A DNA stretch of 64,000 bases from Rhodothermales bacterium (GTDB taxonomy: Bacteria; Bacteroidota; Rhodothermia; Rhodothermales; VXPQ01). The translations under genes were made by a program, and so were the position numbers. The stretch covers positions 2,328,965 through 2,392,964 of the forward strand of contig OX638295.1 in NCBI GenBank assembly GCA_951812345.1. The letters are read 5' to 3'. The notes beneath the pieces were generated by a model that made no database searches, was not told the origin of the DNA, and was given only the letters and a program-made list of their open reading frames with translations. Positions 5,813 to 63,872 of this stretch are shown here, in pieces; position 1 is the stretch's first letter; each line of letters starts with the position of its first letter.

Positions 5813-5834
5813 AACGGCCTTAGTTCAGCCCCAG

Positions 5835-5871
5835 GGATGCTCTGATTAAGTCCGCTTCGATCAGTGCATCC
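5835..5871. repeat. 37-bp palindromic copy of the GGATACTCTGAT repeat family, overlapping the feoB 3' end
   Basis: The sequence begins GGATGCTCTGATTAAG and ends ATCAGTGCATCC; the two ends are inverted repeats with one mismatch, so the RNA on either strand would fold into a hairpin. Four-base direct repeats (CCAG) flank it at 5831-5834 and 5872-5875. It lies between convergent genes and could serve as a bidirectional terminator. The feoB stop codon (5861-5863 on the minus strand) and its last two residues lie inside it. Confidence 0.75.
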
Positions 5872-8260
5872 CCAGCATCAGTCCGCCCTGGTAGACGATG
5901 AGCGAGCACAGGTAGGCAAGCCCGGTCATGTATAGCCACATGACCACCGGCCAGCGCCAGGTGTTCGTCTCGCGCCGGGCAATGGCAAGCGTGCTCATGC
6001 ATTGCAGCGCAAACACGAAGAACACCAACAGGCTCAGCGCCACCAGCGGCGTGAAAACGGGCCGACCGTCCGGGTAACGATCTGCCTGAAGGTGATCGCG
6101 GAGAACAGGGCTGGCCTCGTCGGCGTCACTGACGCTGTAGAGCGTGGCAAGCGTGCTGACGATGACTTCGCGCGCAGCAAACGCCGCAATGATGCCCGCG
6201 GTGATCTTCCAGTCGAAGCCGAGGGGTTGCATGACGGGTTCCAGAGCGCGCCCGAACCGGCCGATGAAGCTATGGCGGATCAGGTACCCGGCTTCGGCGT
6301 CGGCCAGGCGGGCTAAACCGTCTTCGTATTCCTGCTGCGCCCGATGCAACGCCTGGGCGCTGGCAACCTGACCGGGGTATTCGTTGCGCAAGGCGTCGAA
6401 GGCCGCTCCGGCTTCGGGATCGCCCTCGGGATCGACCGAGAGAAAACGCATCGCCTCTGCAACGGGAGGCTGTGCAAGCAAGTCGGGGATGGACGCACCT
6501 TCCTGCGCCGCGATCCGGTCGTATGCATCCTGATGCCGGGTTTCGATAGCCGTCCGCTCAGCCAGCAGGTCCGGGCCGAGCTGCGCCTTGGGATAACTGG
6601 CCAGAAACCAGAGCACGATGCTCAGCAGAAAAATGATCTTTCCCGCCCGATAAACGAATATTTTCGACCGCGCAATCATGCGCCAGAAGAGGTATCTCAT
6701 CTTCGGACGCCGGTATGGCGGCAACTCCATGGCAAAGAAGGACGCCGACCCCTTGAAAACGTATCGTTTCAGAATCCAGGCCGCTACGAAAGCGGTCACG
6801 GTACCCATAAGGTACATCGAGAACATCGTCAGACCCTGGTAGCCGAAAACCCCGAAGAGTTTGTTCGCCGGAATAAACGCGGCGATGAACAGGGTATAAA
6901 CCGGCAGGCGCGCCGAGCAGCTCATCAGCGGAGCAACCATGATGGTGATAATCCGGTCGCGTTCGTTGTCGAGCGTCCGAGCCGCCATGATGCCGGGAAT
7001 GGCGCATGCGAAACTGCTCAACAGCGGCACCACAGAACCGCCGCTGAGCCCCACCCTCTTCATCAGCCGGTCCATGATGAATGCCGTGCGGGCCATGTAG
7101 CCGGAATCCTCCATCAGTCCGATGAAGAAAAAAAGCAGCAGGATTTGCGGCAGAAAAATCAGGACATTGCCCACCCCCGCGATGGCTCCTTCAACCAACA
7201 GGTCCGCAAAGGCGCCGCTGGGCAACGTACTTCGTACCAAGGTACCCAGCCCCGCCACCGCCGCCTCGATCAGATCCATGGCCGGAACGGCCCAGGAAAA
7301 GACCGCCTGAAAAACGATCACAAGGACGGCAAGGAATATCGGGAGGCCGAATATCCGATGCGTCAGCACCGCATCGAAACGGTCTGACCATGTCTTGTTC
7401 GAGGAGACCTTGTGCCGGGCCGTCGCTTGCGCAACAATGGGGCCGAGCCATGCGTAGCGTCCCATGATCTCCGCCTGGCGATAAGGCGCCTTGCGCGCCT
7501 CCAGGGTTTCCCGGACAGCCAGCACCGCTGCATGAAACGCCGGGGCGCGTATTGCCCAGTACGCCATGGCCTTCTCGTTGGCAAGAGCGTGCAAGACCTC
7601 GCTGAAACGATGATCTTCGGCAAGATCGGGGGCGTGCTCGGCAAGTATTTCGCACAGCGGCCCCACCTGCGCCGCAACAGCAGGCATCAGCGTCCAGCGC
7701 TGCACCGGCGCAGGCGAAGGAATATCGAGGATGGCGCAGCGCAGCGCATCAAGGCCTTCTTTGCGGAGCGCCGCCATCGGAACGATCGGCAGACCCAATG
7801 CTTTGCCGAGCGCTTCCGTGTCGATCGACAGATCGCTCTCCCGCACCGCATCCATCATATTCAGCGCCACAATGACCGGAAGACCCAGGTCCATCACCTG
7901 CGAAACCAGATACAGGTTGCGCTCCAGGTTGGTAGCATCCACCACGCAAACAACCAGATCGGGTGGCGTCTCGCCCTCAATGCGTCCCACGAGCATGTCG
8001 TAGGCGATCTGCTCGTCGAGCGACCTGGGATTGAGACTGTATGTCCCCGGCAGATCGACTACCTCGACGGTCTCCGTCCCGATAAGCCGCCCGCTCTTGC
8101 GTTCGACGGTGACGCCGGGGTAATTGGCCACTTTTTGACGCCGACCCGTCAACAGATTGAATACCGTCGTCTTGCCGACATTAGGATTGCCGACCAGGGC
8201 GACCCGGCGCAAGTCGGGCTGCGTATCCGTCAGGGAGGGGACCGGCTCAGGTTCGACCAT
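5861..8260 (-). CDS. feoB: Ferrous iron transport protein B (FeoB)
   Basis: The 799-residue product has an N-terminal G-protein domain with G1 GNPNVGKTT (residues 24-32), G3 DLPGTYSL (about 68-75) and G4 NMMD. A membrane domain follows with the two gate segments typical of FeoB (e.g. GLMEDSGYMARTAFIMDRLM and FAAREVIVSTLATLYSV). A roughly 110-residue hydrophilic helical insertion (AQLGPDLLAERT to DAEAGYLIRH) sits between transmembrane segments, as in Bacteroidota FeoB proteins. It imports Fe2+ across the inner membrane with GTP hydrolysis. It lies 100 bases downstream of two feoA genes on the same strand and is presumably in their operon. Its last codons lie in a repeat element. Confidence 0.97.
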   Translation of the reverse strand: MVEPEPVPSLTDTQPDLRRVALVGNPNVGKTTVFNLLTGRRQKVANYPGVTVERKSGRLIGTETVEVVDLPGTYSLNPRSLDEQIAYDMLVGRIEGETPPDLVVCVVDATNLERNLYLVSQVMDLGLPVIVALNMMDAVRESDLSIDTEALGKALGLPIVPMAALRKEGLDALRCAILDIPSPAPVQRWTLMPAVAAQVGPLCEILAEHAPDLAEDHRFSEVLHALANEKAMAYWAIRAPAFHAAVLAVRETLEARKAPYRQAEIMGRYAWLGPIVAQATARHKVSSNKTWSDRFDAVLTHRIFGLPIFLAVLVIVFQAVFSWAVPAMDLIEAAVAGLGTLVRSTLPSGAFADLLVEGAIAGVGNVLIFLPQILLLFFFIGLMEDSGYMARTAFIMDRLMKRVGLSGGSVVPLLSSFACAIPGIMAARTLDNERDRIITIMVAPLMSCSARLPVYTLFIAAFIPANKLFGVFGYQGLTMFSMYLMGTVTAFVAAWILKRYVFKGSASFFAMELPPYRRPKMRYLFWRMIARSKIFVYRAGKIIFLLSIVLWFLASYPKAQLGPDLLAERTAIETRHQDAYDRIAAQEGASIPDLLAQPPVAEAMRFLSVDPEGDPEAGAAFDALRNEYPGQVASAQALHRAQQEYEDGLARLADAEAGYLIRHSFIGRFGRALEPVMQPLGFDWKITAGIIAAFAAREVIVSTLATLYSVSDADEASPVLRDHLQADRYPDGRPVFTPLVALSLLVFFVFALQCMSTLAIARRETNTWRWPVVMWLYMTGLAYLCSLIVYQGGLMLGMH

Positions 8261-8870: not shown

Positions 8871-8937
8871 TCGCCCGCCGGCCATGGTTCTTCACAAAAT
8901 CTTCGATATTCTGGCGCGTGTCAGTGTCGTTTTACAG

Positions 8938-9115
8938 GCGCGTCACGTCTGCGATGCCCCGAATTCGCAGTGCTTCCTCTGATTCCGACGGTGGAATCAT
9001 GACAACCTGTACTTGCGAACGTGACGCGCTGAGCGAAGCGGTTTTGGTCAGAGTATCCATAGCCTTTACGCGTGAAAGTGAAGCGCTGAGCAAAGTGGTT
9101 TTGATCAGAGCATCC
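8938..9115 (+). repeat. Two truncated, tandem right ends of the GGATACTCTGAT repeat family
   Basis: The stretch 8938-9058 matches the right half of the full-length element at 13884-14130: GCGTCACG, GATGCCCCGAATTC, CGACGGTGGAATCATGAC, GCTGAGCGAAGCGGTTTTGG, then the terminal TCAGAGTATCC. A second, shorter right end (GCTGAGCAAAGTGGTTTTGA then TCAGAGCATCC) follows at 9066-9115. No left terminus is visible. These remnants fill most of the 480-base gap between feoA and ferritin, which holds no other recognisable gene. Confidence 0.75.
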
Positions 9116-10788: not shown

Positions 10789-10807
10789 CGGAATGCCTCT
10801 CTGTTAA

Positions 10808-11062
10808 GGATATTCTGATTAAGTCCGCAAAGCTCAGAGGCTTGCGAGGAGTGCGCTGGCAAGGAATGACGAAGCAGCGTGGCAGGCCCCACGTAATGAG
10901 GAATGACACAGCCAGCGTGCTCCTCGCAGCCTCCCGAAGGGCGCGTCACGGCCACCATGCCCAAAATTCGTAGTGTTTCCCGTTGATTTCAACGATGGCG
11001 TCATGATGTCCTGTATGCAAGAAAGTGATGCGCTGAGCGAAGCGGTTTTAATCAGAGTATCC
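10808..11062 (+). repeat. Full-length copy of the GGATACTCTGAT repeat (255 bp)
   Basis: It starts GGATATTCTGATTAAG and ends GGTTTTAATCAGAGTATCC, giving terminal inverted repeats. The interior aligns along its whole length with 13884-14130 (shared TCAGAGGCTTGCGAGG, AATGACGAAGCAG, CTCCCGAAGGGC, GCTGAGCGAAGCGGTTTT). It encodes nothing recognisable. It fills the space between the dienelactone hydrolase start and the stop of the DUF5916-type gene, ending four bases from that stop. Confidence 0.85.
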
Positions 11063-11066
11063 TTAC

Positions 11067-13703
11067 TTAATTCAGGAAGTTGTAATTCAGCTTGATCAGG
11101 AAGGCGTTCTCCGGAAAGACATCGAAGGTGTTGCCGAATTGATCGTTGATCGAACGGTCGTAGGGCGAACGGACCATAGGTGCGAGAGGATTCAATATGT
11201 CTTCTGCTTCTCTGCCATGCGTCCAGACGACGAACAGCGCAGAGCCGGGACGGTATTCCCAACGCAATACGAGATTGGAATGCAGGCTGCTGAAGGAAAA
11301 TTCATCCCGCTTGGGATAGGCGTCGAAATCAGTCAGGTTGTCCCGATCCTGATGAATCCGGAAACGGTCGTAGCGGCCCCGCGCCGCAAAAAGCTGGCTG
11401 TAGAGCTGCAAAGAAAGCCTGGGCGTCAGGGTAAACGTGCCGCGTAGCGTAATGTCTGCCGAACGCGTATCCCGCGCGCCGAATACGGACACGTAGTACT
11501 GGTCGACGCCAGTGAGATCAACGCCGGCAAGAATACCGCTAAGCGTTCCGCGATCGTCGAACGCTACAAAATCCGAATAGGTCAAGTCATCCGGATGAGA
11601 CGCTTCCTCCCCGATGCGCCAATCGGATCCGGAACGCAAAAAGGTTTCGTTTGCAGACCAGGCCAGCACATTGCGTTCCCACTCGCCTTCTATTTGGGCG
11701 GACAACGACAAACGATTGCTGGCATTCCATTGCCCTTCGAGGCTGACTTCCGATTCCGTGCCTCCATCGCCGTGAAATGTCAAATCCAGCCCCGGCTCAA
11801 GTTGCCAGTTGCGCCTTTCGTCGGTTGCGAACCGCCCCTGGATGGCGACGTTTCCCGGCGGAGACCAAGGCAAAAGACCGCGCGTCTCGTACAAATCGTA
11901 CCCGCCGAACGGTTTTTCAGATTCAAGGCCGAAAATGATGGACTGGAAACCGCGGAGCGTCCACCGGGAACCGAAATCCAGGCGCTGTCCGAGGTGCAGC
12001 CCTTCCCGGTAGGAGAATTCCTGAACGACGAAGAAACGCGCTCCGGCTCGCGAGAAAGGGCCAAAGGGCCTTCCGCCATTGACCTGGTGCTGAATGGAGG
12101 AGAGAAACGCAATGAAATTGTTCTCGCGAAGTTGACCCGTATCGTTCGGATTAAAGGCGTCGCTGAATACGTCCAGCCCTGCAAATCCGTACCAGGCCCC
12201 CTGTCGCTTGCGCATCCATAGCTTACTGGCGAACCCGGTCTCTCCGTCGATATCCGCATCGATCCGGTTTCTGCTCGTAAGCGCAAAGAATCCCTCGACG
12301 CCATACCGGTTCTCGAGAAACCGGAGATCCCAATCCGCGCCTGCCGCCAGGCTGCGCAAGTGATTCTCATCCACATCGGATCCTTCGAACAGGGTTACGA
12401 TGCCCCCCACGCTCGACCAGGACCCGATTTGCTGACTCGCCCGTCCGACGCCATACCCTCGCGAAGGACTGAAATCGGATCCCGTGGCCGCCCCCAACAC
12501 GCCAAAAGAAAGGCCCGAGCCCGTACGTCCGGAAAGCTTCGTGGCGCCAATAATGGGGGCATCCGCCCCGATCCGGCGCGTATACAGAAGCCGTCCGGGG
12601 CCGACTGAAAATTCGTAGATATTGATGCCCTCTACAAAGAAGGGGCGCCGTTCCTGAAAAAAGGTTTCGAACGCCGTAAGGTTCAACACCGCCGGATCGG
12701 CTTCGACCTGACCGAAATCCGGATTGATCGCCCCATCCAGCGTAACATTCGTGCCAAGACCGACCTTCAGGTCCCCGCCCACATCGAAGGTGCGGCTGCT
12801 TGTCCGTTTTCCGGCGACCTCCTCGCTTTCGAGGGTGTTCACTCCGGTGACGGTATAGGGTATGATCTGTACGTTACGCCGGGGCTTCACGTCCCGAATG
12901 CCTTCCAGACGACCAAACCGGGCCACCAGGTTGGTCCGCTCCGTACGGGGCACATGGGGCCACTCCGATTGTTCGCCGAGCCGGGGAATCCTGCGCGTGA
13001 AGTGAACCCCCCACGTTTGCGTGGGCGCCTCCGAGAAACGCAGCATGCTGTACGGAATGCGCAGCTCCACAGCCCACCCCTCTTGCGTTGCGCGTACATC
13101 CGAATACCATACGGCGTCCCAGGAAGGATCCATGCCTCGGGGCGCATTATTACCGCCTCCTCCGCCCCCCGGTCCGCCGCCGCCCGGCCCGCCGCCGGTT
13201 GTTCCGCTCCCAGTCTGGAGCGCATCGAACTGCACGCCGGCCGCATTCACGCCAAAGACATAGGCGGTACGCCGGTCGAAATAGGCGTCCACGGCCACCA
13301 GAAACCAGTCGGCCCGATTGAAATCGTCCCGCCGCCCCAATGCCCTTTCAATAGCCCCCGGCTCATCGTCATGGAGCAATGCCCCGACGTAGAGATTATT
13401 CGCACCATACAAAACGCGAACTTCCGTTTCCTGAAAGGCCGGGGCGCCGTCCACAGGTTCGTATTGCCGGAAACCGGATACGGCGATCGCCCTTCGCCAA
13501 GCGTCTTCGTCCAGTATGCCGTCGAGGGCGATCTCCTCTTCGACAAACAGGGCCTGCATGACGCCCTCGTTGTCCTGCTCTATCGGAGACGACGGCGCAC
13601 TCGTCTGGGCCGAAACCTCGAGGACGGGCAGCAGGACGCACACGGCGAACGCGGCTGCAACGAATGCCGAAACATGTGGCAAAATCAGTACGTCACGTCG
13701 CAT
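11067..13703 (-). CDS. DUF5916-type outer-membrane protein with N-terminal CBM9-like domain
   Basis: The chosen ATG at 13703 gives MRRDVLILPHVSAFVAAAF, a signal peptide ending near VSA; the frame is open to 13778 but the extra 25 residues spoil the signal. Residues 35-250 read as a carbohydrate-binding family 9-like domain (DGILDEDAWRRA, VRVLYGANNLYVGALLHD, WAVELRIPYSMLRF). The rest, with DFGQVEADPAVLNLTAFETF and FFQERRPFFVEG, is typical of DUF5916 and ends in beta-strand-rich sequence with a C-terminal KLNYNFLN, as in outer-membrane barrels. A glycine-rich loop (GGGPGGGGPGGGGGG) interrupts the CBM9-like part. The natural ligand is unknown. It is a paralog of the divergent gene at 14201. Confidence 0.82.
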   Translation of the reverse strand: MRRDVLILPHVSAFVAAAFAVCVLLPVLEVSAQTSAPSSPIEQDNEGVMQALFVEEEIALDGILDEDAWRRAIAVSGFRQYEPVDGAPAFQETEVRVLYGANNLYVGALLHDDEPGAIERALGRRDDFNRADWFLVAVDAYFDRRTAYVFGVNAAGVQFDALQTGSGTTGGGPGGGGPGGGGGGNNAPRGMDPSWDAVWYSDVRATQEGWAVELRIPYSMLRFSEAPTQTWGVHFTRRIPRLGEQSEWPHVPRTERTNLVARFGRLEGIRDVKPRRNVQIIPYTVTGVNTLESEEVAGKRTSSRTFDVGGDLKVGLGTNVTLDGAINPDFGQVEADPAVLNLTAFETFFQERRPFFVEGINIYEFSVGPGRLLYTRRIGADAPIIGATKLSGRTGSGLSFGVLGAATGSDFSPSRGYGVGRASQQIGSWSSVGGIVTLFEGSDVDENHLRSLAAGADWDLRFLENRYGVEGFFALTSRNRIDADIDGETGFASKLWMRKRQGAWYGFAGLDVFSDAFNPNDTGQLRENNFIAFLSSIQHQVNGGRPFGPFSRAGARFFVVQEFSYREGLHLGQRLDFGSRWTLRGFQSIIFGLESEKPFGGYDLYETRGLLPWSPPGNVAIQGRFATDERRNWQLEPGLDLTFHGDGGTESEVSLEGQWNASNRLSLSAQIEGEWERNVLAWSANETFLRSGSDWRIGEEASHPDDLTYSDFVAFDDRGTLSGILAGVDLTGVDQYYVSVFGARDTRSADITLRGTFTLTPRLSLQLYSQLFAARGRYDRFRIHQDRDNLTDFDAYPKRDEFSFSSLHSNLVLRWEYRPGSALFVVWTHGREAEDILNPLAPMVRSPYDRSINDQFGNTFDVFPENAFLIKLNYNFLN

Positions 13704-13883
13704 GGAGACCACTTTTTGAGCGAATTGAGTGGAAAATTTTTCCTGACAGATCCTTTTTGATGGCAACCCTTCGGGCAAAGCCTAAAATGGAGGTCCATAG
13801 ACTCCCATGGTTAGACCCCAAATACGCGTTCTGCATTCCATACACGGCAAAAAATACGTATATCCAGCTACGTTTGCGTTATA

Positions 13884-14130
13884 GGATACTCTGATTAAGT
13901 CCTCAAAGCTCAGAGGCTTGCGAGGGGCGGGCCGGCAAAGAATGACGAAGCAGTGTATGTGGCGGCCCCGCACAATGAAGAAATGACGCGGCCAGCGCGC
14001 TTCTCGCAATCTCCCGAAGGGCACGTCACGTTCGCGACGCCCCGAATTCCCAGTGCTTCCCATAATTCCGACGATGGAATCATGACACGAACGCGACGCG
14101 CTGAGCGAAGCGGTTTTGGTCAGAGTATCG
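13884..14130 (+). repeat. Full-length copy of the GGATACTCTGAT repeat (247 bp)
   Basis: Its ends GGATACTCTGATTAAG and GGTTTTGGTCAGAGTATCG are inverted repeats, and TA dinucleotides flank both sides. The inside is homologous to 10808-11062 and has no reading frame of note. It occupies half of the roughly 500-base divergent intergenic region between two DUF5916-type genes, so it lies in the leader or promoter region of one or both. The rest of that gap (13704-13883 and 14131-14200) shows nothing recognisable. Confidence 0.85.
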
Positions 14131-14200
14131 TATATTCTATAATCGTATTTTTGGCCTTTATTCGCATCTTCCTCTCTCCTATCCTTTCCGGCCGCCCTCC

Positions 14201-16537
14201 ATGCACTACAGGATGCACTGCGCAAGCCGGGCAACGCTTGCGTCCCTCTTCTTTTTTCTGACCCTGTCCCTTGCGCTTCCCGCCACGGCGCAGCAAGCGG
14301 GACAGACGGGAGCCTACGCCGCCAATAACAGCGCTGCCGATAGCGATCCGATCGCCGCCCCCGCAATACGCGCGGTTAAAAGCGACAGCGACGCCCTGCC
14401 TGTCCTTGACGGCGACGTACTGGGCGATCCCGCCTGGGCCGACCTGGAGCCTGTCACCGGATTTATCCAAATCACTCCGAACGAGGGACAACCGGCTTCC
14501 GAGCAGACCGCGGTCCGCATCCGGTACACCGAACAGACCCTGTACGTCGGCGTCGTGTGCTACGACCGCGACCCGTCGCAGATCATCGTGTCGGACAGCC
14601 GCCGGGATGCGGATCCCCAGGAGGCCGACAGTTTCAGCCTCATTCTGGATACGTACCGGGATCTCCAGAGCGGGTTCATCTTCGGGACGAACTCCGCCGG
14701 GGTCGAGTACGATGCGCAGGTAACGAACGAAGGCCAGAACAGCGGACGGTTCTCGCAGGGCCCACGCAACCAAAGCGGTTCGGGCGGCGGTCTGAACGTC
14801 AACTGGGATGGCGCGTGGACGGTCTACACGGAAACGGGAGCGTACGGATGGAGCGCCGAATTCGCCATTCCGCTGCGCACATTGCGCTTTGCGACCGGGG
14901 AAAATCAGGTGTGGGGCGTCAACTTCGAACGCCGCATCCGGCGGCGGAACGAAACCGCCTACTGGGCCCCGCTTCCCCGACAATACACGCTCGCGCGGGT
15001 CTCGCTGGCCGGAACGCTGGAAGGTCTGGACATCCAGGCGCCGCGCAATCTGCAAATCATCCCGTACGCGCTTGGACAAGGCGCCCGCACCACCGACTCC
15101 TCGGAGTTGCCAACCACCTCGGAATACGCAGACCCTGAAGGAGATGTCGGCATAGACCTGAAGTATAGCCTGACGCCAAGCATGACGCTCGACGTCACGT
15201 ACAACACCGATTTTGCGCAGGTCGAGGTGGACGAGCAACAAATCAATCTGGACCGCTTCAATCTTTTCTTCCCGGAAAAAAGGCCCTTCTTCCTGGAGAA
15301 CGCCGGGGTGTTTTCGGTGGGCGCCCCGGGACAGATCGATCTGTTCTTCAGCCGACGCATCGGCATCGGCGCGAGCGGCGTAGCCGTGCCCATCCTCGGC
15401 GGCGCCCGCCTCTCCGGTTCCATGGGGGATTACCGGATCGGGGTACTCAACATGCAAACCCGGCAACTCGGTGGAGAGGAGGTTCCCGGGAATAACTTCA
15501 GCGTGGCGCGCCTCAAGCGCGAGTTCCCGAACCGCACCTTCGCGGGCGTGCTTGTCACCAACCGGCAGGGCGTGGGCGATCTGGCGAACGCGGACAATTA
15601 CAACCGTGTATTTGCTGTCGACGGTCAACTTGGCATCGGACAGTACGGCCTGATATCGGGTTTCGGGGCTCTGTCCGAAACGCCGGACATGTCAGCAAAA
15701 AACCATGCGTACAGGCTGCTTACCACCTACAACTCCCAGTCCTGGCTGCTGAATGCAGGCTATACCGAAGTAGCCGAAAACTTCAACCCGGAACTCGGTT
15801 TTCTGCAAAGAACATCCTACCGCTATTTCAACGGCCTCGTTTTTTACCGGTATCGTCCCGACTTCCTGCGCTTTCACGAATTGCGCCCGCATGTCAGCTA
15901 CAATGGGTACTGGGGCTTCGACAGGGTGTACGAAACAGGTTTTCTGCATATCGACAACCACTGGGAATGGGAAAACGGCTGGGAGATTCATACAGGCATC
16001 AACTTCACCACCGAAGGCGTCCGGAATGCTTTTCAAATCAGCGAAGGAGTGTGGGTGCCGAGGAAATCGTACCATCATCGGGAAGCCATGATCGTCGGCA
16101 TCACGGACGAGAGCCTTCCGCTCAGCCTGAGCACCCGGGTGATTGCGGGGGGATTCTTCGGGGGCGATCGCGTTACGGTCCTTTCCACCATCCGCGCCCG
16201 GGTCGGAGATGCATTCAACACGGAAATCGGCCTGAGCCAAAACTGGGTGGACCTGCCGGGCGGCAACTTCACCGCGAATCTGGTGCGTACGCGGCTTTCG
16301 TATTCCTTCACCCCGCGGATCTACGTGCAAACCCTGATTCAGTACAACAGCGCAGCAGAACTATGGTCCATGAACCTGCGGTTCGGGTGGCTTCAATCAG
16401 CGGGCACAGGCCTGTTCGTTGTCTTTAACCATACATCCGAATATGACCTGGATGGAGGATTCGGCGCCTTCGAACCACAGTTCACGGACCAGGCAATCAT
16501 TATCAAGTACTCGCGGCTGCTGAACGTGCTGCGGTGA
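14201..16537 (+). CDS. DUF5916-type outer-membrane protein, paralog of the 11067-13703 product
   Basis: A 778-residue protein with a signal peptide (hydrophobic LASLFFFLTLSLALPATAQ), a CBM9-like region (DGDVLGDPAWADLEPVTGF, VRIRYTEQTLYVGVVCYD, WSAEFAIPLRTLRFA) and the DUF5916 hallmark segments DFAQVEVDEQQINLDRFNLF and FFPEKRPFFLENAGVF. A beta-strand-rich C terminus ends KYSRLLNVLR. Gene order and motif conservation with the leftward neighbour suggest a divergent duplicated pair. A second ATG at 14213 is possible. Substrate and function are unknown; the fold suggests an outer-membrane channel or binding protein. Confidence 0.82.
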   Translation: MHYRMHCASRATLASLFFFLTLSLALPATAQQAGQTGAYAANNSAADSDPIAAPAIRAVKSDSDALPVLDGDVLGDPAWADLEPVTGFIQITPNEGQPASEQTAVRIRYTEQTLYVGVVCYDRDPSQIIVSDSRRDADPQEADSFSLILDTYRDLQSGFIFGTNSAGVEYDAQVTNEGQNSGRFSQGPRNQSGSGGGLNVNWDGAWTVYTETGAYGWSAEFAIPLRTLRFATGENQVWGVNFERRIRRRNETAYWAPLPRQYTLARVSLAGTLEGLDIQAPRNLQIIPYALGQGARTTDSSELPTTSEYADPEGDVGIDLKYSLTPSMTLDVTYNTDFAQVEVDEQQINLDRFNLFFPEKRPFFLENAGVFSVGAPGQIDLFFSRRIGIGASGVAVPILGGARLSGSMGDYRIGVLNMQTRQLGGEEVPGNNFSVARLKREFPNRTFAGVLVTNRQGVGDLANADNYNRVFAVDGQLGIGQYGLISGFGALSETPDMSAKNHAYRLLTTYNSQSWLLNAGYTEVAENFNPELGFLQRTSYRYFNGLVFYRYRPDFLRFHELRPHVSYNGYWGFDRVYETGFLHIDNHWEWENGWEIHTGINFTTEGVRNAFQISEGVWVPRKSYHHREAMIVGITDESLPLSLSTRVIAGGFFGGDRVTVLSTIRARVGDAFNTEIGLSQNWVDLPGGNFTANLVRTRLSYSFTPRIYVQTLIQYNSAAELWSMNLRFGWLQSAGTGLFVVFNHTSEYDLDGGFGAFEPQFTDQAIIIKYSRLLNVLR

Positions 16538-16688
16538 AAAAGCCTCCTTGTTGCACGATGACACGGTAGGCGTGCATTGCGAGCGATAAAAAAAGCCGGG
16601 AGCGCGCAAGGCGCCCCGCATATTCGTTCAACAGCATCGCCGCCCTTATCTGCTTGTTGAACGGCAGCAGCCGGATTGCCACCTGCAT

Positions 16689-19600
16689 TCAGAGGGTAGT
16701 ATCCCCGGCGCCGGACACGAAGACCTTCAGGGCCGCATCGTTCTGCGCAACCACCGTAAGCGGACCCGTTGCAGTGCCCACGCGAACCATGCCGCGCACT
16801 ACCCCGGGCGCCAAAAAACCGCTCCGGGAAGCAGGAACGCTTTCCCAGGTCATCTCCCCGCGATGCAACAAAAGAAGGCCGCGCCCCCCATTGTAACGGC
16901 CCCACTGCGCGCGCGTCTCGAAAGCATTGCCTGCAAGAAGGATATCCGTCTGTCCGTCGCCGTCCGCATCCTCGAAAAGGATGGCGTGCACCGGAGCAAA
17001 CTGCGCTTCGACAGGCAATTCCTGCATCCGGAACCGGCCTTCCCCGGTGTTCTCAAAAACGCTGCTGGCAAATTGGAAAGCCTCCAACCTGACCGTGGGC
17101 TCCACCTCGGAAAAAACATCGTCCAGCGTGGCGCGGGCGTACGAGGCATAATCCGGAAATTGCCGGGCAAGCAACGGAATCTCCTCCAGCAATTCGTCTC
17201 GCCAGGGCACAGGGTGCCTTTGCTCGCCGATGTAATATCCCATGACGAATTCGGAATGCCCGTCGGCGCCGAAATCCGCGGAATACACCGCGGCGGGTTT
17301 GTCCGGACCGGCTTGCATCTGCGCGTTCAACCCCCGGTTGCCAGCGACCAGGTCGATATCGCCGTCGCCGTCCAGATCCTGCGCGCGCAGGACATTCCAC
17401 CAGCCTGCCGTACCGGCGAAACCTGTTTCGGAAGCGGGTATCTCGGCCCATTCTCCGGCGTACCGGAACGCCCGGATCGGCATCCACTCTCCCGCCATAA
17501 CCAGTTCGGCGCGCCGATCTCCATCCATATCCATCCACAGGGCGTCGGTCACCATGCCCGGCGCACGCAGCGCTTCCGGCGTGATGTCCGCGAACGCGCC
17601 GTCCGTATTCTCCAGCAGATAACTGCGCGGAGCAAGCGGATAGCGACCCGGAAGCACCCGCCCGCCTACGAAAAGGTCGAGATCGCCATCCGTATCGAAA
17701 TCGTGCGCCGCTACCGTACCTCCGCTGCTGTGCAAAGCGGGCAAGGCTTGCGCGGCATGGGCGTACACGCCGGCGCCGTCATTGACGTACAGGCGATCCT
17801 GATACACCGACATATCCTCCGCTTCGAACGATCCGCCGCTGACCACATACAGGTCCCGGTCGCCGTCCCCGTCCGCATCCAGGAACAGGGCGTCCGTATC
17901 CTCATAGCCGCTATGCGCTTCGAAAGCCGCGCCGGGACCCCGGCCAAACGATCCGTCGGGGCGCTGCAAAAAAAGCGCACCGGACTGACCTCCCGCCCCA
18001 CCCACGAATACATCCTCCAGCCCGTCCCCGTCCGCATCGCCAGCCGCCAGCGCAGGCCCCTGGCGCGACAACATATGCGGGAGAAGGCGCTCGCGCTCAA
18101 AATCGACGAACGGATTCTCTTCATGGACGAACTGCAAACCCCTGGCATCCGCCGCCTCTGCGAAGAACGGAGGGGGTTCCAGGGCCTCCCGTTCATCCGG
18201 CGCCTCGAACCCGGCGTCCCGGCGATGCAGCGTCACCGTTTGATTCGCGGGCACGCCCTGCAGCCGCTGACGCGCCCCGTCCGGCCAGATCACTTCGAGA
18301 TCGACCTGCTCCAATGCGCCCAGGCCGAAAAAAAGCACCGGTTCCACGGACGACAAATACCCCCGCACGGGATTCATTTCCCGGAAAAACCGCTGTCCTG
18401 CCCCTGTTACCCCGACCGCAGCGCCAATCCCGTACCGGTTGCCTTCCGGGCCTTCGAGACGCACCTTCAGATAATGCCCCGTCGCAAGACGATCCGCATC
18501 GTTGCGGTAAACAAAGGCTTCCGCATTGATGTTGTTGACCACAAGATCCAGGTCCCCATCGTCGTCCAGATCGGCGTAGGCCGCGCCGTTCGAAGAGGCG
18601 GCCTCGCCCATCCCCCAGTCCTGCGTCTTGTCCGCAAAGGCGATTCCCGATTCGTTCCGATAGATATAGTTGCGGAGCAGGGTGGAAGGCATTTGCCGGA
18701 TCATTTCCATGGAGGACAAGGCTTCCCCCCGGGCACTCGCTTCCTGGTATGCATTCACCAGCGTGCGCCGGAGAAAATCGAGATTCGTGTAGTCGCGCAC
18801 GAAGCCATTCGTGACGAAAAGATCGTTGCGGCCATCGAGATCGAAGTCTGCCAGCAACGGCGCCCAGCTCCAGTCGGTATTCGAAACGCCTGCGAGTTGG
18901 CCGATTTCCGTAAAAGCCCCATCTCCCCTGTTCAGGTGCAGCATATTGCGCATATACTGCTCGTGAAACCCCTTACTCCGGATGTCTGCGTAAAATACAT
19001 GGTCTTTCGGCCCTTGCAGCACCTTCTGCCGAAAATGATCTTCGGCTATCATATCCAGCGTCGCAATGTCGGGCAACGCATCGTTGTTTATATCGGCAAT
19101 GTCGGCCCCCATGGACGAGTAGGACGTATGCGTCAGGAACGAGCGGACGGATTCGGTAAACGTCCCGTCCCCATTGTTCACGTACAGATAATCGTCCTCG
19201 ATAAAGTCGTTGGAAACGTAGATATCGGACCAGCCGTCCCGGTTCAAATCGCCAACGATCGCACTGAGTCCGAAACCCAGCGGATTGCCGATGACGCCCG
19301 CCGCTTCGCTCACGTCCGTAAACGATCCGCCGTCGTTCCGGTACAGTTTGTCGCCGACCAGGGAGTCGCGAGCACTCCGCATATAGTCTATATAAAAGCG
19401 GGTCAAACGCCGGATCGAATGATTCAGCAGATATACATCCAGGTCGCCATCCCGGTCGTAATCGAACAGGGCCGCGTGGGTCGAGTAGGCAGGATCGTCG
19501 AGACCGTATTCCGCCGCTCGTTCGGTAAACGTCCCGTCCCCGTTGTTGACGTACAAAACGTTCCGGCGGGAATCCGCGCTCACCCGGCCCGATTTGCACA

Positions 19601-20003
19601 CATAGATGTCCAGATGTCCATCCCCGTTGATGTCCGCCATCGTTACGCCGGTCGTCCAGCCGAATTCGCTCGCAAGACCCGCCTGCTCCGTGACGTCTTC
19701 GAACACCAGACCACCCCGGTTGAGATACAGGCGGTCCTGATCCAGGTTGGCGGAAAAATACAGATCGGGCAGGCCGTCGCCATTCACATCGCCGGCAGCC
19801 ACGCCGGCCCCGTTATAGAAACTATCGTACTCCAGCACATTGAATCCGTCCCGTTCTATGATCTCGTTCCTGAAAGTGATACCTGTCTCGACCGAGGACA
19901 AGCGTGTAAAGAGCGGGGCAGCAGCATCCTCGACCTCGCCCGCCGGGCCGCCGCATGCACCAACCAGGCACAAAAGAAATGAAAGCGGAACAATACGCTT
20001 CAT
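16689..20003 (-). CDS. FG-GAP/VCBS repeat lipoprotein with ASPIC/UnbV domain (CRTAC1-like)
   Basis: An 1104-residue protein with a lipobox (LCLVGACGG, Cys near residue 17). Many Ca-binding FG-GAP repeats of the type DVNGDGLPDLYF, DINGDGHLDIYV and DYDRDGDLDVYL form a predicted seven-bladed propeller. An ASPIC/UnbV domain lies at about 520-610 (FFREMNPVRGYLSSVEP, LEVIWPDGARQRL), followed by a second block of FG-GAP repeats to the C terminus. Such proteins are tethered at the cell surface or in the periplasm and are thought to bind carbohydrate or protein ligands. The gene is convergent with the DUF5916-type gene; an imperfect inverted repeat (GTTCAACAGCA at 16626, TGCTTGTTGAAC at 16651) in the short gap may be a terminator. 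Confidence 0.85.
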   Translation of the reverse strand: MKRIVPLSFLLCLVGACGGPAGEVEDAAAPLFTRLSSVETGITFRNEIIERDGFNVLEYDSFYNGAGVAAGDVNGDGLPDLYFSANLDQDRLYLNRGGLVFEDVTEQAGLASEFGWTTGVTMADINGDGHLDIYVCKSGRVSADSRRNVLYVNNGDGTFTERAAEYGLDDPAYSTHAALFDYDRDGDLDVYLLNHSIRRLTRFYIDYMRSARDSLVGDKLYRNDGGSFTDVSEAAGVIGNPLGFGLSAIVGDLNRDGWSDIYVSNDFIEDDYLYVNNGDGTFTESVRSFLTHTSYSSMGADIADINNDALPDIATLDMIAEDHFRQKVLQGPKDHVFYADIRSKGFHEQYMRNMLHLNRGDGAFTEIGQLAGVSNTDWSWAPLLADFDLDGRNDLFVTNGFVRDYTNLDFLRRTLVNAYQEASARGEALSSMEMIRQMPSTLLRNYIYRNESGIAFADKTQDWGMGEAASSNGAAYADLDDDGDLDLVVNNINAEAFVYRNDADRLATGHYLKVRLEGPEGNRYGIGAAVGVTGAGQRFFREMNPVRGYLSSVEPVLFFGLGALEQVDLEVIWPDGARQRLQGVPANQTVTLHRRDAGFEAPDEREALEPPPFFAEAADARGLQFVHEENPFVDFERERLLPHMLSRQGPALAAGDADGDGLEDVFVGGAGGQSGALFLQRPDGSFGRGPGAAFEAHSGYEDTDALFLDADGDGDRDLYVVSGGSFEAEDMSVYQDRLYVNDGAGVYAHAAQALPALHSSGGTVAAHDFDTDGDLDLFVGGRVLPGRYPLAPRSYLLENTDGAFADITPEALRAPGMVTDALWMDMDGDRRAELVMAGEWMPIRAFRYAGEWAEIPASETGFAGTAGWWNVLRAQDLDGDGDIDLVAGNRGLNAQMQAGPDKPAAVYSADFGADGHSEFVMGYYIGEQRHPVPWRDELLEEIPLLARQFPDYASYARATLDDVFSEVEPTVRLEAFQFASSVFENTGEGRFRMQELPVEAQFAPVHAILFEDADGDGQTDILLAGNAFETRAQWGRYNGGRGLLLLHRGEMTWESVPASRSGFLAPGVVRGMVRVGTATGPLTVVAQNDAALKVFVSGAGDTTL

Positions 20004-20148: not shown

Positions 20149-20211
20149 GGATACTCTGACCAAAACCGCTTCGCTCAGCCTCTGAACTTTGCAGACTTAA
20201 TCAGAGTATCC
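20149..20211 (-). repeat. 63-bp internally deleted copy of the GGATACTCTGAT repeat
   Basis: Read on the minus strand it joins the left end of the full-length element (GGATACTCTGATTAAG then TCAGAGGCT) directly to its right end (GAGCGAAGCGGTTTTGG then TCAGAGTATCC), missing the roughly 190-base interior. TA dinucleotides flank both sides. It sits in the predicted leader of fbaB and gives a spurious in-frame extension to that gene. Confidence 0.85.
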
Positions 20212-31067: not shown

Positions 31068-31104
31068 GGATACTCTGATCGAATCGGACATAATCAGAGT
31101 ATCC
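31068..31104. repeat. 37-bp palindromic copy of the GGATACTCTGAT repeat, 12 bases before a start codon
   Basis: GGATACTCTGAT at 31068-31079 and ATCAGAGTATCC at 31093-31104 are a perfect 12-base inverted repeat around a 13-base centre. TTA flanks both sides. Transcribed rightward, the hairpin would end just before the translation start of the SGNH-like gene, where no Shine-Dalgarno sequence is visible. Confidence 0.85.
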
Positions 31105-47340: not shown

Positions 47341-49197
47341 ATGCCTTTCCAAAAACATATCTCCTGCGGCGCGGCGATATTACTCCTTGCGCTCACCGGG
47401 GAGTTCGTGCAGCCTTCACCCGCTCAACCGGCGCCCAAGCACGAGTTCCGGGGCGCATGGATCGCCACGGTCATCAATCTCGACTGGCCAGGTTCGCGCG
47501 GCACTTTCGTAAGTAACCAGCAGAAGGCGCAGTTAACGATCATGCTGGACAGGCTGAAGGAAGCGGGTATCAATGCCGTCTTCTTTCAGGTGCGGTCGGA
47601 GTCCGACGCCATGTACGAATCGCCGTACGAGCCATGGTCCTACTGGCTTACGGGCAGGCAAGGCGTCCCTCCCAATCCTTTCTACGATCCCCTGACCTTC
47701 GCTGTAGAGGAAGCGCACAAACGCGGCATGGAACTGCATGCCTGGTTCAATCCCTATCGGGCCGTGCGGGGTTCGGGGTATACAAACGATGCTTCGCACA
47801 TCTCGGTACAACATCCCGAATGGACGCTTACGATCGGGAATCTGACGGTAGCAAACCCGGGATTGCAGGAAGTGCGCGATCATGTTGCGACCGTTATTGC
47901 GGACGTGGTCCGGCGCTACGACATCGACGGGGTCCACTTCGACGATTATTTCTACCCGTATCCGCCCAACCAGATCAGGTCGGAGGATCGAGAAACCTTC
48001 AACAACGACCCGAGAGGATTTACCAGTATCGGTGCCTGGAGACGCGATAACATAGATATTTTTGTGGCCCAGGTGGCGGACAGCGTGAACGCGATCCGTC
48101 CGTCCGTAAAATTCGGCATCAGCCCGTTCGGCATCTGGAAAAACGGGGTTCCGTTGGGCATCGTGGGGCTGGATGCCTATAACGTGATCTACGGCGACGC
48201 GACGGCCTGGCTGGAAGCCGGAACGGTGGACTACCTCGTCCCGCAACTCTACTGGGCATTCGGGGGCGGACAGGATTACGCCAAACTGGCGCCCTGGTGG
48301 GCTACCCGCACCCGGGAAACGAATCGCCATCTGTACACGGGCCACGGCCTGTACCGGGCCGACAGGGCCACCTTCAGCGGCAATTTGTTTTCGACCAGCG
48401 AGGTGCCCCGGCAAGTCCGCTTTAATCGCGCCCGCGACGACATTCAGGGAAGCGTGTTCTTCCGGGCGAAAAACATCAGCGTCTTTTCATCAAGGGGCTT
48501 CGCGGACACGCTGCGCACGAACCTGTACCATACCCCGGCGCTCACGCCGCCCATGGATTGGAAAGATATGTCCGCGCCCGAGGCGCCCGGCACGCTGACC
48601 TTCGCACGGACCGGCTCAGACGAAGTAGTGCTTTCCTGGACGACGCCTGCATCTTCCATGCCCGACGTGCGGCGCTACGCAGTGTACCGGGTACGTTCTC
48701 CTGCGCCCCCGCCCACGGCCTTTGCGGTGGACGATCCGAACAACCTGATCGCCGTGACAGGAGAAACGTCCTTCACGGATCGTCCCGAAATGCTTGCCGG
48801 TGCGGATCCTCTGCATTATTTCGTGACGTCGGTCAGCGCAAATTCTATCGAAAGCGCGGCAAGCAATCTGGTATCCCTTGACGCAGACCCGACCGGGGTG
48901 GAAACCGAACAGCCGGAAGCGTTCGCGCTCTTCCAGAGTCACCCGAATCCGTTCCGGGAAACGGTTGAAATCCGGTTTTCAATGCGGCAGCCCGCCCCTG
49001 TAACCCTGCGTATATACGATGCGCTGGGCAGAGAAGTCGTGGGACTATCCGAGGCGCAATGGATGCCGGAAGGGCTACACACCCTGCGCTGGAACGGCCG
49101 GGATGCGGCAGGCCGCTCTGTCGCTTCCGGCACGTACTACTATGTACTCGACGCCGGAAACTACCGCGCCTCGAAGGGAATGATCAGGGGGCGATAG
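47341..49197 (+). CDS. GHL10-family glycoside hydrolase (DigH/YngK-like) with C-terminal sorting domain
   Basis: A 618-residue exported protein. Residues 30-400 match the glycosyl hydrolase-like 10 (DUF187) family: EFRGAWIATVINLDWPG, NAVFFQVRSESDAMYES, MELHAWFNPYRAV, IDGVHFDDYFYPYP and GISPFGIWKNG. The family includes E. coli DigH (YddW), which cleaves peptide-free peptidoglycan strands. FnIII-like sequence follows at about 410-520. The C terminus (ALFQSHPNPFRETVEIRFS, RIYDALGREVVGL, SGTYYYVLDAG, SKGMIRGR) is a T9SS-type sorting domain variant. It is transcribed divergently from the receptor module at 47057, with about 280 bases between them that hold no other gene. Confidence 0.88.
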   Translation: MPFQKHISCGAAILLLALTGEFVQPSPAQPAPKHEFRGAWIATVINLDWPGSRGTFVSNQQKAQLTIMLDRLKEAGINAVFFQVRSESDAMYESPYEPWSYWLTGRQGVPPNPFYDPLTFAVEEAHKRGMELHAWFNPYRAVRGSGYTNDASHISVQHPEWTLTIGNLTVANPGLQEVRDHVATVIADVVRRYDIDGVHFDDYFYPYPPNQIRSEDRETFNNDPRGFTSIGAWRRDNIDIFVAQVADSVNAIRPSVKFGISPFGIWKNGVPLGIVGLDAYNVIYGDATAWLEAGTVDYLVPQLYWAFGGGQDYAKLAPWWATRTRETNRHLYTGHGLYRADRATFSGNLFSTSEVPRQVRFNRARDDIQGSVFFRAKNISVFSSRGFADTLRTNLYHTPALTPPMDWKDMSAPEAPGTLTFARTGSDEVVLSWTTPASSMPDVRRYAVYRVRSPAPPPTAFAVDDPNNLIAVTGETSFTDRPEMLAGADPLHYFVTSVSANSIESAASNLVSLDADPTGVETEQPEAFALFQSHPNPFRETVEIRFSMRQPAPVTLRIYDALGREVVGLSEAQWMPEGLHTLRWNGRDAAGRSVASGTYYYVLDAGNYRASKGMIRGR

Positions 49198-58745: not shown

Positions 58746-58910
58746 AGGCCCCGCACTGCTTCGTCATTCCTTGCCAGCCCACCCCTCGCAGCCTCTGATC
58801 TTCGCGGACTTAATCAGAGTCCATGTCATGGTTCCATCGTTGAAATCAGCGAGAAACCCTTCGGATGCGGGGCATCGCGGGCGGGAAGCGCCCTTCGGGA
58901 GACTGCGCTT
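58746..58910 (-). repeat. Two tandem truncated copies of the GGATACTCTGAT repeat
   Basis: On the minus strand, 58746-58822 reads as the left half of the element (GGACTCTGATTAAG, then GAGGCTGCGAGGGG, AAGGAATGACGAAGCAG). 58823-58910 reads as its right interior (CTCCCGAAGGGC, then TGATTTCAACGATGGAACC), without the right terminus. Both have the same orientation and abut, so they are remnants of two adjacent insertions. They occupy most of the space between the PorV-like and amidase genes. Confidence 0.7.
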
Positions 58911-63808: not shown

Positions 63809-63872
63809 GGGTACTCTAATTAAGTCCGCAAAGTTCAGAGGCTGAGAGGGGTGGGCGGCGGCGCGTTCCGGC
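63809..63872 (+). repeat. Left-end fragment of the GGATACTCTGAT repeat upstream of mazG
   Basis: GGGTACTCTAATTAAG followed by CGCAAAGTTCAGAGGCTGAG and GAGGGGTGGGCGG matches the left end of the full-length elements; similarity fades after about 64 bases and no right end is present. It sits in the promoter/leader region of mazG. Confidence 0.7.

Follow-up and report, generated by a model that had tools for sequence, protein, structure and literature searches.

The repeats scattered through the window, that is, the whole 64-kb stretch of DNA analysed here (positions 2,328,965-2,392,964 of a genome of 2,817,622 bases (2.82 Mb) assembled in one contig), are very probably copies of a non-autonomous DNA transposon, a MITE of the IS5 family, which is moved in trans and generates 4-bp AT-rich target duplications. 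They constitute a new MITE family of a known IS5 kind in the Rhodothermales, an assignment that has solid support, and literature searches, although not exhaustive, retrieved no report of this family. In particular, the element is short and non-coding, with a canonical length of 253-255 bp and inverted 12-bp ends that form part of an imperfect terminal stem, about 30 bp long; it is dispersed and present in high copy number; and its insertions are polymorphic, with an empty site and a target duplication. The duplications show an excess at 4 bp and a TTAA consensus, that is, the AT-rich, YTAR-like type of the IS5 family (NF033581-type group). The MITE interpretation proposed in an earlier note on this DNA is thus supported by copy number, by presence or absence between relatives and by the IS5-type ends.

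A profile derived from 58 full copies, run on the window and on a shuffled window, assigns to one family all eight locations (8/8) that the earlier note had listed, with 0 matches in the shuffled sequence. In other words, the two long copies and their listed derivatives are real. Likewise, when up to 2 mismatches are allowed, the 12-base end occurs 18 times in the window, whereas 100 shuffled versions gave 2.6 occurrences on average and never more than 6. One full-length element of 255 bp (10808-11062, plus strand) has a stem of about 30 bp, formed by 10808-10837 with 11033-11062, and two arms inside; its TTAA duplication lies at 10804-10807 on the left and, after 4 extra bases (TTAC), at 11067-11070 on the right. 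This insertion lies immediately next to the stop codon of gene 11067-13778, a stop that is contained in the TTAA target. The other full-length element, of 247 bp (13884-14130, 13884-14129 in the profile, plus strand), lies between divergent genes and is found only in this species among five genomes. It is delimited by a left terminal inverted repeat GGATACTCTGAT (13884-13895, plus strand), by a right one CGATACTCTGAC (14119-14130, minus strand) and by the target duplication TATA at 13880-13883 and 14131-14134. Within 13876-14150, the empty target of the sister species (GTTATATTTTATAATTG), which lies between divergent genes, resembles the -10 region of a promoter, and the insertion may therefore alter transcription.

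The remaining copies are shorter. Two 37-bp forms are located at 5835-5871 (5835-5874 in the profile, minus strand), with a CCAG duplication at 5831-5834 and 5872-5875, and at 31068-31104 (31070-31104 in the profile, plus strand), while a 63-bp form at 20149-20211 (minus strand) has kept both ends. The derivative previously placed at 8938 resolves in the profile into two consecutive pieces on the plus strand, namely the right half of an element (8937-9058) and, directly 3′ of it, a second right-end fragment (9061-9115); those placed at 58746 and 63809 are fragments of the same family, specifically a degraded copy in two pieces (58751-58907, minus strand) and a left-end fragment (63811-63856, plus strand). 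The succession of two right halves at 8937-9115 suggests recombination or nested insertion between copies. The claim that all copies are intergenic holds for the most part: by a rough gene call, the overlap with coding sequence is below 10% for 44 of the 77 two-ended copies, but for only 4% of randomly chosen places. It is not strictly true, because the copy at 5835 extends into feoB, overlapping the 3′ end of its reading frame (5861-8260). The stop codon of this frame (5861-5863) is supplied by the 37-bp insertion, and the frame of the sister species G003, which is without the insertion, ends a few codons differently. Elsewhere in the window, 47341-49197 encodes a protein with a weak match to a C-terminal type IX secretion sorting domain.

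The earlier note had named dozens of intergenic copies as support for a mobile family, and the genome holds well over a hundred copies. Termini at up to 1 mismatch number 400 in the whole genome, against 2 for a reversed control pattern, and a single copy of the element used as blast query finds 43 places. The 149 distinct two-ended copies gathered comprise 103 of at least 242 bp and 14 of exactly 37 bp, with the rest in between; full copies mostly measure 253-256 bp. The context of gene pairs in which they reside (divergent, tandem or convergent) is only slightly different from that of all gaps, and no orientation preference relative to neighbouring genes was detected (17 same, 25 opposite, p 0.28). 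The 37-bp copies arose from full-length copies by deletion, as they correspond to a deletion between two CTGA repeats, one in the left end and one 30 bases from the right end, and match the predicted products at 34-37 of 37 bases; the other short forms would also derive from full-length copies by internal deletion. The element occurs in all six genomes (6/6) of its genus, which is uncultured, and was not found in 239 other genomes of the class. Among the matches listed, every record with the end pattern comes from uncultured Rhodothermales, and the searches of plasmids and phages gave no match to the element.

Exact 4-bp flank repeats border 41 of the 149 copies, whereas shuffling gives 12.8 on average and 22 at most, and repeats of 3 bp border only 5; the lack of an exact 4-bp duplication in the other 108 counts against an IS5-type MITE. 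The commonest duplication is TTAA (18), followed by TAAA and TATA, and, since TTAA and TATA are palindromes, counting inverted flanks adds no independent support. Target duplications, which had been described as inconsistent, become consistent when a length of 4 bp is taken (TATA at 13884, TTAA at 10808 and CCAG at 5835).

In the sister species G003, one stretch is collinear with window positions 14201-20003 at 90% identity, and further synteny blocks extend to about 36000; empty sites were read directly from the unaligned flanks. G003 is without the element at both 10808 and 13884, and its flanks there overlap by exactly 4 bp. The 13884 site is empty in four sister species (G001, G003, G004 and G005). 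The target has the sequence TTTATATTC in G003 and CGTTATATTTT in both G004 and G005, where the genome under study has CGTTATA-element-TATATTC. Of the two 37-mers, the CCAG-flanked one at 5835 is missing from G003, whereas the one at 31068 is common to both species, with diverged ends. The closest relative of the 10808 copy is found in G003 at another locus with other flanks (245/255 bases, 96%), the orthologous G003 site being empty, and bodies that are 99.2-99.6% identical stand at unrelated flanks within this genome (L019, L024 and L028). Empty sites together with near-identical bodies at unrelated sites demonstrate movement. Accordingly, presence or absence differs between close relatives at 10808, 13884 and 5835, and the fixed identical positions across relatives that had been named as evidence against mobility are not what is seen. 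In the same pair of genomes, a sequence of about 7 kb that is internally repeated (L052:15671 to L053:2779 of G000, the genome under study) is about 70-75% identical to a repeated stretch of G003.

As for the transposase, a PF01609 search of the genus returned nine places, and only those in this genome (L094, L087 and L091) carry the ends of the element. Specifically, L094 (G000:1211472-1212138) is an IS5 transposase gene with its middle deleted, which lies between perfect copies of GGATACTCTGAT and ATCAGAGTATCC, 666 bp apart, so that the ends GGATACTCTGATYAA of the element also bound a decayed IS5-family transposase copy; the L087 and L091 remnants have retained the right end. The further DDE transposases of G001, G002 and G003 (L088-L090, L092, L093 and L095) are without these ends and were discarded as candidates. 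The partner protein combines PF01609 with PF05598, and its fragment matches the NF033581 IS5_4 model with an E value of 5e-40 and 137.6 bits, against a cut-off of 140. An intact relative was found in G029, among 114 genomes of the order searched: it is 328 aa long, 72% identical over the fragment, scores 336 bits with NF033581 (cut-off 140) and has the ends GGATGTTCTGAT and AGGAATGTCTGATCAA. In G066, some 33 matches to the transposase fragment are mostly decayed, with stop codons (L179, L189, L195, L201, L205 and L206), and have variant ends such as GGATAGTCTGAT and GGAAACTCTGAT; this genome of the same order appears as a graveyard of the same IS5 group. Moreover, five annotated plasmid-borne IS5 relatives, 48-52% identical, combine GGAnnnTCTGA-like ends with target duplications of 4 bp (CTAA, TTAG, CTAG, CTAA and TCAA), with terminal repeats such as GGATGCTCTGAT (CTAA), GGAAACTCCGGA (TTAG), GGAAGGTCTGCA (CTAG) and GGAAGATCTGCA (CTAA). 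Ends, duplication length and target preference of these relatives agree with those of the element.

The transposase with the same terminal repeats that a mobile family should have is therefore present in the genome, with both ends, but as a broken copy only. No intact transposase was found in the six genomes of the genus, most of the sister genomes being fragmented assemblies from which plasmids may be missing, and hence an active partner was not seen; nor did an autonomous copy turn up where two ends lie 1.4-3.7 kb from each other, as only ordinary genes were found between such pairs in 400 kb each of this genome and G003. Outside the ends, the body of the element is unlike the IS5 remnants, so the element did not arise from that insertion sequence by simple deletion. 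Judging from the shared ends, we infer that the element was moved by this IS5 enzyme, of which every copy found is now broken. In the proposed mechanism, an IS5-family transposase supplied in trans would bind the GGATACTCTGATYAA ends, excise or copy the element and insert it into 4-bp AT-rich sites (TTAA, TATA, TAAA and similar), and the insertion would duplicate those 4 bp.

The palindromic ends, the high copy number and the mostly intergenic positions are also properties of REP or BIME-like repeats mobilised by a RAYT protein (Y1 transposase), a class which the earlier note had considered as an alternative. This origin is extremely improbable and is contradicted by three observations: PF01797 is found in 0 of 6 genomes of the genus, against 5 of 14 control genomes; the target duplications are of 4 bp; and the IS5-type ends are common to a DDE transposase.

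Within the MITE, the body raises a separate question, as the consensus of the full copies (255-bp body) folds on one strand into a Y, composed of a terminal stem of about 30 bp, which corresponds to the inverted ends with their inner neighbours, and two arms. The plus strand of the 10808 copy has a predicted folding energy of -119.6 kcal/mol (z -9.2), compared with a z of -6.8 for the other strand, and the plus strand is the more stable one in 51 of 58 copies; the 13884 copy folds only modestly (z -2.7). Covariation was examined in 58 copies less than 95% alike, on a structure taken from one copy. The stems of the Y are 94-98% paired across this set and 35 of 85 pairs have changed on both sides, with 138 cells of both-sided change against 62 after shuffling and 20-38 in slid structures. 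That the stems are kept by compensatory changes is thus an observation, while the role of the fold is putative.

How the paired changes arose can be explained in two ways. A possibility, which we consider tentative, is that the body specifies a structured RNA, with the transcripts from one strand folding into the Y and selection on them keeping the stems while the IS5 ends moved the element. The suggested selection would act against RNase attack or read-through damage, or on a small RNA. This possibility is compatible with the MITE and not an alternative to it, and the stability and strand bias of the fold and the paired changes speak in its favour. At the same level of doubt, the paired changes might instead reflect correction at the DNA level between the inverted arms, through template switching in cruciforms, in which case the structure itself would not be under selection. 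In line with such a process, the same variant appears at both ends of one copy 8 times, against a chance mean of 1.35, and the central bases of the 31068-31104 copy are in opposite orientation in G003, as if a hairpin had flipped, which template switching or cruciform resolution could produce.

DNA correction predicts no excess of G-U over A-C intermediates, and here the two explanations diverge. Changes were counted by parsimony on a tree of the copies, which is uncertain; copies may also recombine. In the conserved stems, Watson-Crick pairs changed to G-U 92 times and to A-C 42 times (p 2e-5), whereas the variable inner helices, used as internal control, have no G-U excess (19 against 27), and in the unpaired columns transitions are without strand bias. 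On internal branches, 17 double compensations stand against 5 A-C and 7 other mismatches, most mismatches lying on the tips. The excess is therefore seen at the level of events and in the stable stems only, and the preference for G·U over A·C suggests that, in multiplying lineages, it is one specific strand that pairs. On the other side, a structured RNA has against it the null orientation preference reported above, the modest fold of the 13884 copy and the absence of an Rfam family (in the window no match reached the gathering threshold, with only a 14-bit chance match, E 0.13), and its support depends in part on the uncertain tree. The further claim that the MITE body encodes a strand-specific structured RNA, with the Y kept through G-U intermediates, which would make the element an IS5-borne parasite with a functional RNA, either evolved or captured, is slightly more doubtful. 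Returning to the MITE itself, the Y fold on one strand of its body is kept in multiplying lineages, and its candidate roles are shielding RNA, aiding transposition, or neither.

In this uncultured genus of the Rhodothermales, the family accounts for a visible part of the intergenic DNA. Recent movement, combined with no intact transposase found, offers a clean case for how MITEs outlive their transposase. The strand-biased conservation of the fold is the part most worth a specialist's time: whether selection acts on the RNA fold of a transposon is seldom settled, since bacterial MITEs tend to be too scarce or too alike, and compensatory stem changes with a G-U bias provide a way to test it.

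MITEs in general have been reviewed (PMC10969869), and IS5-type MITEs are known in Porphyromonas gingivalis, namely MITEPgRS/MITE464, MITE700 and BrickBuilt (PMC4596501). Like the element described here, these have IS5-family terminal repeats, many intergenic copies, predicted stem-loops and no transposase remnant inside (PMC4596501). They differ in that their ends belong to another IS5 subgroup (GAGACC.../ACGTCA... against GGATACTCTGAT), their body is unrelated by description, and lengths and duplications are different. IS5-family insertion sequences of the NF033581 type share with the element the GGAnnnTCTGA-like ends and the 4-bp AT-rich duplications, and broken copies with identical ends are present in this genome; unlike them, the element has no coding capacity and a body not derived from the insertion sequence seen here. 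The Correia elements, or NEMIS, of Neisseria have other ends, are shorter and undergo documented cleavage by RNase III. Like the family described here, they are small, palindromic and mobile, reside near genes and can fold in RNA (PMC10969869, PMC2649163).
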